A DNA stretch of 49,696 nucleotides from Alphaproteobacteria bacterium (GTDB lineage Bacteria; Pseudomonadota; Alphaproteobacteria; Elsterales; Elsteraceae). The notes under the pieces were generated by a model. That model was not told the DNA's origin. It ran no database searches and saw only the letters and a list, made by a program, of their open reading frames with translations. Made by a program: the position numbers and the translations under genes. Positions 1 to 5,165 of this stretch are shown here, in pieces; positions within the stretch are counted from its first letter, which is position 1, and every line of letters begins with the position of its first letter. The DNA lies in contig RDXE01000048.1 of assembly GCA_004292755.1 (NCBI GenBank), forward strand, positions 1 to 49,696, read 5' to 3'.

Positions 1-1724
1 GTCCTGCTTCCAATCAAAGGCGGCAAGGAACCCAAATCAGCACCTAGGAGGCCCACCCCAAATTCTGCCGCTTGATCTATTTTGATATTTACAGTTGATG
101 ACAAGGTGATTAACTCGGAAATAATGACGATCCGGGTCAATAAATCTATTTCACCAGCTTTCGCAGCGTCTTCAAGTTCTTGCACTGCCCTGTATGTGTG
201 TCCTAAACGGTACAAAGCTTGCGCTCTAAGCGCAGTGCGAATAGCACCGGCGACGAGTGTGTCGTTTGAATTTATGTTGTTCTCCTTGAACACTTGCTCT
301 GGCTCAACCTCTAGTCTTTCAGTAATTGCCTTCGCCTCGGCAAAATCAATCGCCGCTGCACTCAAATAGTCAGAAAGCCTAGTCTCGAATTTATTTATGT
401 ACCAGTTCTTTTTAGGTTCCAACCCTTCGATCGCCAGCCGACTCAGCAACGCCCCCTCGGCGACGCGGCCATCCAGGAGGTACCGAAGGCCGTGGGTTCT
501 TTGTTCGTCCCGGGTGTAGAAGCTGCGCAGGAAATCGAGGATCGATGCCAAGGGTGTGGCGCGCGCCGTGCGGCTGCCTTGGCGCAGGCGGTAGTAATGG
601 GCAAACACGCGGTCGGTTACGGTGTACAGGGTCTCGCGGCTGTCCAGGGCAGAGCGACCGCGAACGATGTCGGCGCGTTGCAGGTCGGCCATTGCACGGG
701 CGATCTGGTTCTGCCCATCGGCGCCGACACGCTGGGCCAACTCCGTCTGCGAGGCAGGTTCACCACCGCGGATCAAAGCATCCAGCAGACCGCGCACCAA
801 TGGGCCTAGGTCTTCGATCCGACGGCGGTAATACTCAGCCAAACGGTCGGCCAGCGCGTCCATGGTCGCTGACACCGACAAGGCATCCTCGGTCTCGATC
901 ACCTCACCCAGCAATTGCGCCAGCCGCGGCGTGCCGCCGATGAACTCCGCCACAGCGCGCGCCTTCGCCTCCTGAGGGGCGTCGAGCGGCGGTTTGCCCT
1001 CGCTCTCACGTTTGCGGTTAAAGTACGTGATGCAGTCTTCGGTGGTCCAAGGCGTCAAACGCACAGTCTCAAACGCCTGGAACAGCGGGCGGTCATAGTC
1101 CATATCCACTGTGCCGGTGGCCGTTGCCAGCAGCATCAGCCGATTTCCTGACCGGAACAACCATTCGCGCAAGCGTTGCTCATCCTCCTGTTCTGCAAAC
1201 AACGTTGCCAAGAGTGTATCGAAATTTTCAACGGCAACAACCACCAGCCCCTGACCATTGGGGAGGCTATGGTCCAGTGCCTCCTCCAGCTTTTCGGCGG
1301 CTTCTGTCCAGCGTCGCGCCGCCTCTCCGGGTTTCGGCCATTGGAATTTGGCCTCTTCGAAAGCAGCGTCACTGTCCTGTTGTTTGAGCAGGACTGTTAT
1401 GTAGGTAAGCAGAGCATAGGGACTTTTCTGCAGGTTATGCTGTTCTTCTGGCAGCAACAAGAAACGCACCGGACCGTCGCCGTGGTCGTGTTGACCTAAG
1501 GCGATCTCAACCCGTCGCATCATGAAGGACTTGCCAAAGCCGCGCGATCCATACAGCACAACGTGCTGTAACGTTCCCGGCGACGCAGCGCGGGAGCGGC
1601 TGATTGCCCCCATGATGCGCTGGAACTCAGCCTCACGCCCAGTTGACACCGCGACGATGTCGCTGTCGCTCATCTCGTGGGTCATGAAAGTGCGGACGAT
1701 GGCCGGGCGGGATTGGATGCTCAT
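1..1724 (-). CDS. P-loop ATPase with C-terminal winged-helix and helical region, 3' end cut by window
   Basis: An uninterrupted minus-strand frame runs from ATG at 1724 to the left edge of the window, about 574 codons with no stop, so the C-terminus lies outside. The ATG overlaps the TGA of the ATPase gene upstream (ATGA), which implies translational coupling. Residues 59-66 are a Walker A loop (GSRGFGKS). Residues 160-169 look like the Walker B strand, but it ends VENFD where an acidic pair DE is usual. A region near residues 330-400 resembles a winged helix, followed by helices with a TPR-like look. Codons become AT-rich (ATA, AGA, CTA) from about position 430 leftwards, unlike the rest of the gene. 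The family resembles AAA/STAND-type ATPases with a DNA-binding-like tail. The function is unknown; a role in stress, defence or regulation is only inference. Confidence 0.8.
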   Translation of the reverse strand, partial: MSIQSRPAIVRTFMTHEMSDSDIVAVSTGREAEFQRIMGAISRSRAASPGTLQHVVLYGSRGFGKSFMMRRVEIALGQHDHGDGPVRFLLLPEEQHNLQKSPYALLTYITVLLKQQDSDAAFEEAKFQWPKPGEAARRWTEAAEKLEEALDHSLPNGQGLVVVAVENFDTLLATLFAEQEDEQRLREWLFRSGNRLMLLATATGTVDMDYDRPLFQAFETVRLTPWTTEDCITYFNRKRESEGKPPLDAPQEAKARAVAEFIGGTPRLAQLLGEVIETEDALSVSATMDALADRLAEYYRRRIEDLGPLVRGLLDALIRGGEPASQTELAQRVGADGQNQIARAMADLQRADIVRGRSALDSRETLYTVTDRVFAHYYRLRQGSRTARATPLASILDFLRSFYTRDEQRTHGLRYLLDGRVAEGALLSRLAIEGLEPKKNWYINKFETRLSDYLSAAAIDFAEAKAITERLEVEPEQVFKENNINSNDTLVAGAIRTALRAQALYRLGHTYRAVQELEDAAKAGEIDLLTRIVIISELITLSSTVNIKIDQAAEFGVGLLGADLGSLPPLIGSR

Positions 1725-2866
1725 ACCAGCCCCCTTTGCATCCACCATGCATGCGCGAGCCGGGAGGCCGGTTTCCATCTGCGTTGAAAGGTTGCATCCA
1801 CCGTAGAGGTGATGAACCCGTCCTCCTTAAGCATGTCGAGCACTTCCGCGCGATCCGAGGGGTCGGCGCCAGGAAGGCTGTTCACCAGACACGGTTCCTC
1901 CGCGGCCATCACCGCCCTCAGAATTGGGATTACAATCTCCCGATACTGATTCCCTGGCAGATCAGCATAGGCTTTGAACCGATTATCGAACTGTCTAAAA
2001 AAGTCATTATGCAAATACGGCCGCACGTTATTTGCAAAGATGGTGGCGAAATCCTCTGACGGTCTTGGCTCTGTCACGCCGACCTCCAACAACGCTTTCA
2101 CAAGGAAGCAGGGATAAAGAACCCCAGACTCCCTCAGCAGCGCATCGGTGTGGGTCGAAGTCCATGCCGTCGAATTGGTTGCTGCGCAAATGAACTCGCG
2201 AGCTTCAGTCTCAGTCAACTCAGGTACGTCAAAATCCTGGAGGTCGTTCAGGTGTTCATGGTTAAGACTATGTTGTCGCGCAAGCCGTTGCATACCGATT
2301 GACCCGGTCAGCAGCATCTTGACGCCGGCGCCACGCCACTCCCGCATCGAAGCCAGCAGGCGATTGGCCTTGTCTGGGCCATGCCGTTTGACTAGATTGT
2401 CCATAAGCATGGAGAACTCGTCGACAATCAGGATCGGCAGGGGTTCAGCCCGTGTTCTATCCAGGATCGCGGTCGACACGCCCTGCCAGTAGGCATCCAA
2501 CGTCGCCTCGTCAAATGGTGTACCTTTGGTGAGTGAATCGAGAAGCGATGTCAGGGGACCTTTAGCGACCTTCTGTAGTAGCCCTTGGAACAAGCGCTTT
2601 TCCTTAGGCAACTCGGTCATCCACTTGGTCATGAAATCCGACAGCGAGTTAAGTCCTTGGCCGTCGAAGGAGACGTAGGGAACCTTCTGTCTCTTCAGTT
2701 CTTCAATGGCGCACTCGCGGAAGGTTGATTTACCGATGCGACGCAGCCCGAACATCTTAACGCCGTTGCTGCTTTGCATGGCTTCATGCAGGCGTTGCTC
2801 CAGAGCGGGGCGGGCAAATCGCTGCTCGCCCGTGACCGCGGTCCCATAGTGGATTTTCAGCCTCAT
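1721..2866 (-). CDS. AAA-family (archaeal-ATPase-like) ATP-binding protein, first gene of a two-ATPase operon
   Basis: This 381-residue cytoplasmic ATPase has a Walker A loop at residues 40-48 (GLRRIGKST), a Walker B strand ILIVDEF with D149/E150, and a sensor-1-like strand LLTGS near residues 185-189. The C-terminal third could hold a winged helix. The domain order resembles the ATPase_2/archaeal ATPase group within AAA+. I chose the ATG at 2866 because GGCGGG lies just upstream of it. A longer frame opening at 2944 would begin inside the -35 box. The stop codon overlaps the start of the next ATPase (ATGA), so the two products are probably made together and may act as a pair. No nuclease, protease or transmembrane effector is visible in this gene. 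The biological role is not known to me. Confidence 0.82.
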   Translation of the reverse strand: MRLKIHYGTAVTGEQRFARPALEQRLHEAMQSSNGVKMFGLRRIGKSTFRECAIEELKRQKVPYVSFDGQGLNSLSDFMTKWMTELPKEKRLFQGLLQKVAKGPLTSLLDSLTKGTPFDEATLDAYWQGVSTAILDRTRAEPLPILIVDEFSMLMDNLVKRHGPDKANRLLASMREWRGAGVKMLLTGSIGMQRLARQHSLNHEHLNDLQDFDVPELTETEAREFICAATNSTAWTSTHTDALLRESGVLYPCFLVKALLEVGVTEPRPSEDFATIFANNVRPYLHNDFFRQFDNRFKAYADLPGNQYREIVIPILRAVMAAEEPCLVNSLPGADPSDRAEVLDMLKEDGFITSTVDATFQRRWKPASRLAHAWWMQRGLV

Positions 2867-2883
2867 CGCACCACCCGCCTTCC

Positions 2884-2969
2884 CAGATATCTGTCGATCC
2901 AGATATCTGTGAATACGTATACCTACCCGCCCGCGGCCTGTCAAGCATCTGCGGACGCAGATATCTGCG
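2884..2969 (-). repeat. Three copies of the palindrome CAGATATCTG around the ATPase promoter (probable operator array)
   Basis: Identical 10-base palindromes lie at 2884-2893, 2900-2909 and 2958-2967. The last is extended to a 14-base perfect palindrome (2956-2969). An additional half-site ATCTGCG at 2947-2953 forms a second inverted repeat with CGCAGAT at 2956-2962. One copy sits upstream of the -35 box and two lie at or just downstream of the expected transcription start. That is the arrangement expected of a repressor that bridges a promoter. No repressor gene is adjacent inside the window, so the protein that binds here is unknown. Confidence 0.7.
2916..2944 (-). promoter_or_regulatory. 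Sigma-70-type promoter of the ATPase operon
   Basis: Reading the minus strand, TTGACA (2944-2939) is followed by a 17-base spacer and TATACG (2921-2916). This is a near-consensus housekeeping promoter. The expected start point near 2909 falls on a CAGATATCTG palindrome. A leader of roughly 40 bases would precede the ATG at 2866. Confidence 0.6.
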
Positions 2970-3071
2970 GTCTCATATAGCTAAGACAGCCGCCCATGGT
3001 TTCCCACGCCTTGCCACCCAGCCCCAGCAACCCCACCCTCGCCTCTTCCGATCTTGCGCCTTGAGGGTTTC

Positions 3072-5165
3072 ATGTCCGAACAGCCGCCGCTCCCCGTCCC
3101 CGCCCCCGTGGCGCCACGGCGGCCCGTCGTGATCGAGCAACATGGTCAGCGGCGCGAGGATGCCTATGGGTGGCTGCGCTCGGCTGTGTGGCAGCAGGCG
3201 GCCCGTGATCCCAGTTGCCTGGAACCTGAGATTCGCGCCCATCTGGAGGCGGAGAATGCCTGGACCGCGCACTGGTTCGCCCCCCATCAGCCCCTGGTAC
3301 AAACCCTCAGCGCGGAGTTGAAGGCACGGCTGAAGCCCGATGAGGCAAGCGTGCCGGTGCCCGATGGGCCGTGGCGGTATGGCACGCGCTACCAGCCAGG
3401 CGGCCAACACCCGTTGTGGCACCGCCTGCCGCGGGAGGGGGGTGCCGAAACCCTGATCCTCGACGGCGATGCTGAGGCCAAGGGCCACCCCTTCTTCCGC
3501 GTTGCTGCTGGCGCACCCTGCCCGCACCATCGCCTGTTCGCCTATGCCGTCGATGTCACCGGTGGGGAGCGCTACAGCATCCGCGTGCGCGACATCGCAA
3601 CGGGACAGGACCTTGCCGACCGGATTGAGGACGCCCAGGGCGATTTTGTGTGGGCGGCCGATGGTACCAGCCTGCTATACACCGAACTGGATGAGGAGCA
3701 CCGTCCGAGGCGGGTGCGGCTGCACCGCCTGGGTGCCCCACCAGCTGATGCCGCGGTGGTCTATCATGAGCCGGACCCTGGATTCTTCGTTTCCATCGGG
3801 CGAACGGCTGATCGGCGCTGGGCGCTGATCACACCCCATGATCACGAAACCTCGGAAGTGTGGGTGCTGCCGCTGGCTGAGCTGAGCCGCGCGCCCGAGT
3901 GTTTGGCGCCGCGCCACGCCGGTGTTGAGTACAGCGTGGAGGCATGGGGCGATCACTGGGTGATCATCACCAATCGCGACCAGGCGGAAGACTTCCAGGT
4001 GATGACCGCCCCCCTGGCCGCACGTGACCCAGCGCTGTGGCAGGGGTTGGTGCCGCACCGACCGGGCTGCCTCATTCTGGGGCAGAGTGTTGGGCTGCAT
4101 CACCATGTCCGCATCGAGCGGGAGGCTGGACTGCCACGCTTCGTGGTGCGCACCCGCGATCACGCCGAGCGGCGGATCGCCTTTGAGGAGGCGGCCTATA
4201 GCCTCGGCCTAGATGGTCTGATGGAATATGACCAGCCCGTGCTGCGCTTCACCTACTCCTCCCTCGCAACACCGCAGCGAGTATTTGAGGAAGATTTGGT
4301 CAGCGGTGAGCGTCGCCTGTTGAAAGAACAGGTCATCCCATCGGGCCATGATCCAGCGCGCTATCGCGTGGAGCGGCTGTTCGCTCCGGCACCCGATGGC
4401 GAATTGGTCCCCGTGACCGTGCTGACCCAGGCGGACCATCCCCTTGACGGTTCGCGCCCCCTATTGCTGTACGCCTACGGGGCCTATGGCCACGCAATGC
4501 CCGCCAGTTTTAGTCCACACCGCTTCTCCCTGGTGGATCGCGGCTTTGCCTATGCCATTGCCCACATCCGCGGCGGCACCGATTGCGGCTGGCGCTGGTA
4601 CACCAATGGCAAGCGAGCAGCAAAACCCAACAGCTTCACCGATTTCCTGGCTGCGGCCGACACGCTGATCGCCAAAGGCGTCACCAGTGCGGGCCGTATC
4701 GTTGCCCAAGGCGGCAGTGCTGGGGGGATGGTGATGGGGGCAATCACCAATCTCCGCCCCGCCCTGTTCGCGGGCGTGATCGCGGAGGTGCCATTCGTTG
4801 ACGTGCTGAACACGATGTCCGATGCCAGCCTGCCGCTGACGCCGCCGGAATGGCCGGAATGGGGCAATCCGATCACCAGTGTGGAGGATTTCCACACTAT
4901 CCGCGCCTACAGCCCGTACGAGAATGTCCGCCCCGGTCGCCATCCGGCGGTCTTTGCGCTGGCGGGCTTGTCTGATCCGCGCGTGACATATTGGGAGCCT
5001 GCCAAATGGATCGCAGGATTACGGCATAGCAATACCGCTGACACACCGATTTTGCTGAAAACCAACATGACTGCCGGGCATGGCGGCGCTGCCGGTCGGT
5101 ATGACAGGTTGGAGGAAATGGCAGAAACCATCTGCTTCGCTGTGATCATGACCAAGCATGCGTGA
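3072..5165 (+). CDS. ptrB: Oligopeptidase B (prolyl oligopeptidase family, S9A)
   Basis: A 697-residue cytoplasmic serine peptidase. It has an N-terminal beta-propeller (about residues 70-420) that limits access to short peptides, and a C-terminal alpha/beta hydrolase domain. The catalytic serine is S549 in GGSAGG. The likely triad partners are D635 (LSDPRV) and H670 (TAGHGG). The stretch around DASLPLTPPEWPEWG is characteristic of oligopeptidase B, which cleaves short peptides after Arg or Lys. The length fits the family. The ATG at 3072 follows GAGGGTTTC, a usable ribosome site. The gene is divergent from the ATPase operon and the two share a 205-base intergenic region. It probably stands alone; the next gene begins 175 bases on. 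Confidence 0.93.
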   Translation: MSEQPPLPVPAPVAPRRPVVIEQHGQRREDAYGWLRSAVWQQAARDPSCLEPEIRAHLEAENAWTAHWFAPHQPLVQTLSAELKARLKPDEASVPVPDGPWRYGTRYQPGGQHPLWHRLPREGGAETLILDGDAEAKGHPFFRVAAGAPCPHHRLFAYAVDVTGGERYSIRVRDIATGQDLADRIEDAQGDFVWAADGTSLLYTELDEEHRPRRVRLHRLGAPPADAAVVYHEPDPGFFVSIGRTADRRWALITPHDHETSEVWVLPLAELSRAPECLAPRHAGVEYSVEAWGDHWVIITNRDQAEDFQVMTAPLAARDPALWQGLVPHRPGCLILGQSVGLHHHVRIEREAGLPRFVVRTRDHAERRIAFEEAAYSLGLDGLMEYDQPVLRFTYSSLATPQRVFEEDLVSGERRLLKEQVIPSGHDPARYRVERLFAPAPDGELVPVTVLTQADHPLDGSRPLLLYAYGAYGHAMPASFSPHRFSLVDRGFAYAIAHIRGGTDCGWRWYTNGKRAAKPNSFTDFLAAADTLIAKGVTSAGRIVAQGGSAGGMVMGAITNLRPALFAGVIAEVPFVDVLNTMSDASLPLTPPEWPEWGNPITSVEDFHTIRAYSPYENVRPGRHPAVFALAGLSDPRVTYWEPAKWIAGLRHSNTADTPILLKTNMTAGHGGAAGRYDRLEEMAETICFAVIMTKHA

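Follow-up and report, generated by a model that had tools for sequence, protein, structure and literature searches.

Three copies of the palindrome CAGATATCTG lie across one promoter in the window (the whole 49,696-nucleotide stretch of DNA analyzed here). We consider it probable (at about 0.7) that they form the core sequences of an operator set for the autoregulatory repression of a horizontally spread cassette of two ATPase genes, A and B, and that a winged-helix AAA+ product of this cassette, more likely B, binds them.

Palindromes at the promoter of gene A

The copies that the initial annotation had placed at positions 2884, 2900, and 2958 were recovered as exact matches (Table 1); the last forms the core of a 14-base palindrome, as claimed, and the centre-to-centre distances of 16 and 58 bp agree with those given there. 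The 4.21-Mb genome contains five exact copies of CAGATATCTG, three of which are those found in the window within 84 bp. The 160 nt upstream of gene A hold three copies, compared to a mean of 0.001 and a maximum of one in dinucleotide-shuffled sequences. The two copies outside the window are located at C2:115910, in intergenic DNA, and at C41:66551; the latter lies within a coding sequence and was judged to be a chance occurrence.

The sites are located between a divergently transcribed prolyl oligopeptidase gene and a minus-strand operon. Reading the sequence by eye, we found a minus-strand promoter with the hexamers TTGACA and TATACG separated by 17 nt, followed by the ATG of gene A at 2866. 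An automatic consensus promoter scan reported nothing at the gene A promoter because it accepts only -10 hexamers with T as their sixth base. Relative to the TTGACA/TATACG promoter, one site is situated upstream of the -35 box and two around the predicted start point, in line with the initial annotation; transcription is expected to begin near 2909-2908. This arrangement, initially read as one that suits a repressor, is kept at gene A in 13 loci from three classes, and by its position over the promoter it is that of a repressor operator.

Table 1. Features of the cassette, its promoter and the divergent gene (window coordinates).
Feature	Position	Strand	Remarks
Gene B	1..1724	-	first 574 codons, truncated at the contig end; Pfam AAA_16
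Gene A	1721..2866	-	381 aa; AAA+/ATPase_2-type ATPase with C-terminal winged helix
Overlapping operator unit	2872..2905	-	centred on the palindrome 2884-2893; 2 mismatches to the 34-bp consensus
Palindrome CAGATATCTG	2884..2893	.	exact match; 16 bp downstream of the 2900 copy
Downstream 34-bp operator TATACGTATTCACAGATATCTGGATCGACAGATA	2888..2921	-	1 mismatch to the consensus
Palindrome CAGATATCTG	2900..2909	.	exact match; at the predicted start point
-10 box TATACG	2916..2921	-	17-nt spacer; doubles as left half-site of the downstream operator
-35 box TTGACA	2939..2944	-	from the sequence; L028 and L031 have TTG at this position
Upstream 34-bp operator TATATGAGACCGCAGATATCTGCGTCCGCAGATG	2946..2979	-	centred on the palindrome 2958-2967; 2 mismatches to the consensus
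14-base palindrome CGCAGATATCTGCG	2956..2969	.	from the sequence; core CAGATATCTG at 2958-2967 (exact match)
Prolyl oligopeptidase gene	3072-5165	+	divergent; Pfam Peptidase_S9

A symmetric 34-bp operator

The full element is a symmetric 34-bp sequence, TATCYG-N6-CAGATATCTG-N6-CRGATA, in which half-sites lie at -16, 0, and +16. In the columns around 31 sites, of which those sharing one array are not independent, TATCY is conserved on the left and CRGATA on the right, symmetrically about the centre (e.g., A at -11 in 30, T at -10 in 29, and T at +20 in 29 of the 31). These flanking half-sites are absent from the initial annotation. The palindromes at 2884 and 2900 are neighbours in such an array, which accounts for their 16-bp distance; as judged from the column pattern, the operator design itself includes the 16-bp step.

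The downstream operator TATACGTATTCACAGATATCTGGATCGACAGATA is composed of a half-site at the -10 box, the central palindrome at 2900-2909, and a right half that falls within the next palindrome, and it runs from the -10 box over the start point into the ribosome-binding region; the overlapping unit extends towards the ribosome-binding site. The left half of the downstream operator coincides with the -10 hexamer (TATACG in the window, TATCCT in L028, TATTCT in L030, TATCCG in L031), and its right half often enters the ribosome-binding site (CAGATAGGAG in L027, L033, and L035). The upstream operator TATATGAGACCGCAGATATCTGCGTCCGCAGATG stops one base short of the -35 box, and its own half-site, CAGATG, stands directly before it.

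A search of 12 genomes that allowed up to three mismatches to the 34-bp pattern detected 17 sites in 11 of them, and 16 of the 17 were located at cassette promoters (one Accumulibacter genome in this search carries two cassettes); the reversed control pattern yielded no site in the same genomes. Clustering at other promoters across the genome, which the initial annotation had proposed to look for, was not borne out: the operator is almost private to a single promoter, a finding that fits autoregulation. The one operator away from a cassette promoter is found in the window's genome (G000 C2:115898-115931; L050, about 3899-3932) as a solitary full 34-bp element; its vicinity lacks cassette genes but contains an apparent truncated gene, and it is possibly a relic or a second target. 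A viral contig (L036) with two CAGATATCTG copies was set aside as it does not encode such an ATPase pair; its genes specify a large ATPase/replication-like protein and a resolvase-like protein.

Conservation and spacing of the sites

Gene A has homologues in one genome of the same genus, in one genome of another family of the class, and at 12 loci of named genomes (including Accumulibacter, Contendobacter, a Rhodanobacteraceae MAG, Alloyangia, and Pararhodospirillum); two of the found loci are repeats of others, and 13 distinct loci, the window included, were compared. The gene A copies of the other loci are 30-51% identical to that of the window, and operons with the same element upstream of gene A occur in Alpha-, Beta-, and Gammaproteobacteria. 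A GATATC-type palindrome precedes gene A in all 13 loci, and each has at least one core site (at most one mismatch) within 160 nt upstream, with the reservation that the homologues share ancestry and are thus not fully independent. These regions contain 24 such core sites, compared to a shuffle mean of 0.09, and not one of the 9140 windows taken from other parts of the loci possesses two. In L029, there is one clear core site only.

The operator is usually present in two copies per promoter, often 57-58 bp apart; the spacing of the palindrome pair is exactly 58 bp in six and 57 bp in two of the 13 loci. The sequence between the copies is not conserved, whereas its length is. When the six loci spaced at 58 bp were compared in pairs, identity averaged 0.83 for the upstream and 0.93 for the downstream palindrome, 0.68 and 0.69 for the two outer halves of the downstream operator, and 0.38 for the spacer. 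The observed spacings of 58, 57, 51, 49, and 47 bp fix no single helical phase. We therefore do not claim the looping by helical phase that had been suggested as worth testing: 58 and 47 bp are about one turn apart, yet 49 and 51 bp occur as well.

Self-match within the 130 nt upstream of gene A in the 13 loci is highest of all lags at 16 (0.358 vs. 0.257 in shuffles) and second-highest at 58. Eight more distant relatives possess other site sequences; here, lag 16 ranks first and lag 32 second (reached in 0 of 500 shuffles), in a set that includes loci where the period was first spotted by eye and hence is not a clean test. A universal 16-bp period fails in the relative on the Moraxella plasmid pNP7-2 (L060), the promoter of which has palindromes at 27-bp steps, and a Segatella plasmid relative is too AT-rich to judge the period. 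In the wider family, a palindrome array at the promoter seems to be general, and the 16-bp step seems to be common, not universal. The window's genome contains a distant two-ATPase relative (L019; G000 C41:598-1350) with a same-genus counterpart (L020); in both, gene A is preceded by different palindromic sites, which follow one another at roughly 16-bp steps.

The two ATPases

Genes A and B overlap by ATGA (1724-1721). The gene A product matches ATPase_2 and AAA_14 of Pfam, both below threshold, and its AlphaFold model (pLDDT 88) consists of an AAA+ domain plus a winged helix. The best Foldseek match of this model was 2qen (a Pyrococcus ATPase), followed by Cdc6/Orc1 on DNA and, at lower ranks, by NLR resistosomes, CED-4, and Avs4. 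Gene B encodes an AAA_16 ATPase and a winged helix, followed in full-length homologues by a TPR region; the model of its N-terminal part (pLDDT 72) has the same overall plan as that of A and matched Cdc6/Orc1-DNA complexes first. The winged helix of gene B homologues scores 22.8 bits against HTH_IclR (cut-off 22) and matches MarR_2 below the cut-off. Sequence searches of the PDB returned short RecA Walker matches only for gene A and TPR proteins only for gene B, and none of the curated NCBIfam models matches the window proteins. There is no conserved third gene in the homologous operons, and their neighbours vary.

Two further observations concern gene B. In L034 (7200-10523), its TPR repeats are near-identical to one another, as in rapidly changing sensor proteins. 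Contig C61 (L049, 47256 downward) opens inside the C-terminal half of a second gene B; its first 47 nt equal window gene B exactly (window 1-523 region), followed by about 45% protein identity. C61 represents either an orphan 3' module or a second cassette whose 5' part has collapsed.

Proposed autoregulation and alternative readings

Palindromic sites overlap the promoter of their own operon and are kept with this operon in its relatives (13 loci; 11 of 12 genomes), and we infer that the operon also encodes the protein that binds them. The element accompanies the cassette and occurs almost nowhere else, so that a cassette-encoded binder is to be expected, and since no third gene is conserved, the regulator would be A or B, provided that it travels with the cassette. 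Winged helices are present in both models; we prefer B because the putative recognition helix of A is rich in acidic residues. The winged helix of B could, by analogy with NLRs, serve another role within the protein. In the mechanism that we propose, the cassette's winged-helix AAA+ protein, more likely B than A, would bind both operator copies, one directly upstream of the -35 box and one over the -10 box, start point, and ribosome-binding region, probably in a cooperative fashion. The bound protein would block RNA polymerase, and perhaps ribosomes too, and would thereby hold the level of the ATPase pair low; the ATP or ligand state of the ATPase may set the switch.

A single conserved copy directly upstream of the -35 box is in a position common for activators, and the sites might accordingly bind an activator or dual regulator whose upstream copy recruits RNA polymerase and whose downstream copies only tune expression. 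We regard this as quite improbable: the -35 hexamer TTGACA is the consensus and should not need help, and the better conserved palindrome (0.93 vs. 0.83) is the one over the -10 box and start point, which suits repression. The operon lacks a regulator-only gene, as would be expected if a host-encoded regulator that these bacteria happen to share bound the sites. We give this little credence, since hardly any copies of the operator occur away from this promoter in 12 genomes of three classes, the operon resides in unrelated neighbourhoods, and distant relatives have other palindromes at the same place.

Even less credit goes to the idea that Orc1/Cdc6-like ATPases load at the array for assembly or replication, with transcription control being secondary. 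The folds of both proteins resemble DNA-bound Cdc6/Orc1, and a fixed site array beside the gene is reminiscent of archaeal origins, but the overlap of the sites with the -10 box and the ribosome-binding region is precise, the operon has no conserved replication gene, and the same fold search also returned NLR and apoptosome ATPases. The element is short, so that a chance cluster or simple repeat without function might be thought of; its probability is practically nil, since site counts are far outside chance, the sites are conserved while the spacer diverges, and conservation across classes refutes it. Beyond plain autorepression, the NLR/Orc-like ATPase pair might be its own transcription switch, with B oligomerizing over half-sites placed 16 bp apart, the nucleotide or ligand state of the oligomer coupling threat sensing to an expression burst, and the palindrome sequence evolving per lineage; this is speculative, and we deem it rather unlikely.

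Comparison with known systems

In ParA/SopA-type partition (F plasmid, type Ia), a DNA-binding ATPase represses its own two-gene operon via repeated promoter sites. Cooperative ParA assembly at type Ia promoters is described in PMC8465637. The autorepression of a two-gene operon through repeated sites across its promoter that we propose would be alike, but the ATPases studied here are AAA+/STAND-like, not deviant-Walker ParA proteins, and their operator is a symmetric 34-bp element used twice. No partition gene or centromere was seen at the cassette, and the Pfam matches of A, B, and their homologues (AAA+/ATPase_2, AAA_16) include neither the ParA nor the ParB of a partition operon. Type II toxin-antitoxin systems likewise have two-gene operons with palindromes over their own promoter; here, however, both proteins are large ATPases, and neither is like a toxin or an antitoxin.

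As with archaeal Orc1/Cdc6 proteins and their origin recognition boxes, an AAA+ plus winged helix fold is found with symmetric sites near the gene, but the sites studied here overlap a bacterial promoter and ribosome-binding region, and the comparison is one of fold, not of origin features. At the sequence level, the signature of an Orc1/Cdc6 initiator was missing, with no Orc/Cdc6 match in Pfam or in the PDB sequence search. The cassette resembles bacterial conflict systems of the STAND/NLR-like type (Kaur et al., 2020; PMC7159879) in combining an NTPase with TPR repeats highly alike within one protein and in its sporadic, horizontally spread occurrence with relatives near defence genes (QatD); it differs in having two tandem ATPases and no recognizable effector domain. 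The domains of such proteins (AAA_16, HTH, and TPR_12) were found in gene B homologues, some below the Pfam cut-off, and the fold matches to NLRs, CED-4, and Avs4 together with one gene B relative annotated as NACHT lend further support.

The operator offers a functional handle on an uncharacterized, apparently horizontally spread ATPase pair that curated NCBIfam does not name, and it can be used as a marker for finding the cassette. With essentially one target for a 34-bp operator, the binder, its nucleotide dependence, and the inducing signal are directly testable; if the bound protein is the STAND-like one, a sensor would control its own dose at the promoter. Literature searches for the operator yielded no paper, the 10-mer matches being unrelated titles.

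Distribution and apparent mobility of the cassette

The cassette occurs sporadically: at the threshold used, 3 of the 385 genomes of the class contain it. Gene A of the window is 50% identical to that of the gammaproteobacterial L025 but only 32% to the same-genus copy, and such greater closeness across classes than within the genus points to horizontal transfer. The two-gene cassette thus appears to move between classes. One copy adjoins a tyrosine integrase and an apparent tRNA 3' end, one is near a serine recombinase, and another is truncated near an IS110 transposase gene. Searches of viral, plasmid, and phage sequences with gene A gave no match, and further genome searches for the cassette gave no new relatives.

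A conflict or defence role for the cassette is plausible. PADLOC matches of the window proteins are weak (E 0.0009-0.04), and no effector domain was found in the cassette proteins. The distant ATPase-pair relative on the Moraxella plasmid is located downstream of a protein kinase gene and of QatD, a component of the Qat anti-phage system. The second Accumulibacter cassette (L035, 5005-7382) is cut short, with an IS110-type transposase gene 0.6 kb downstream, and the first 143 residues of its gene A product are 98% like those of L027.
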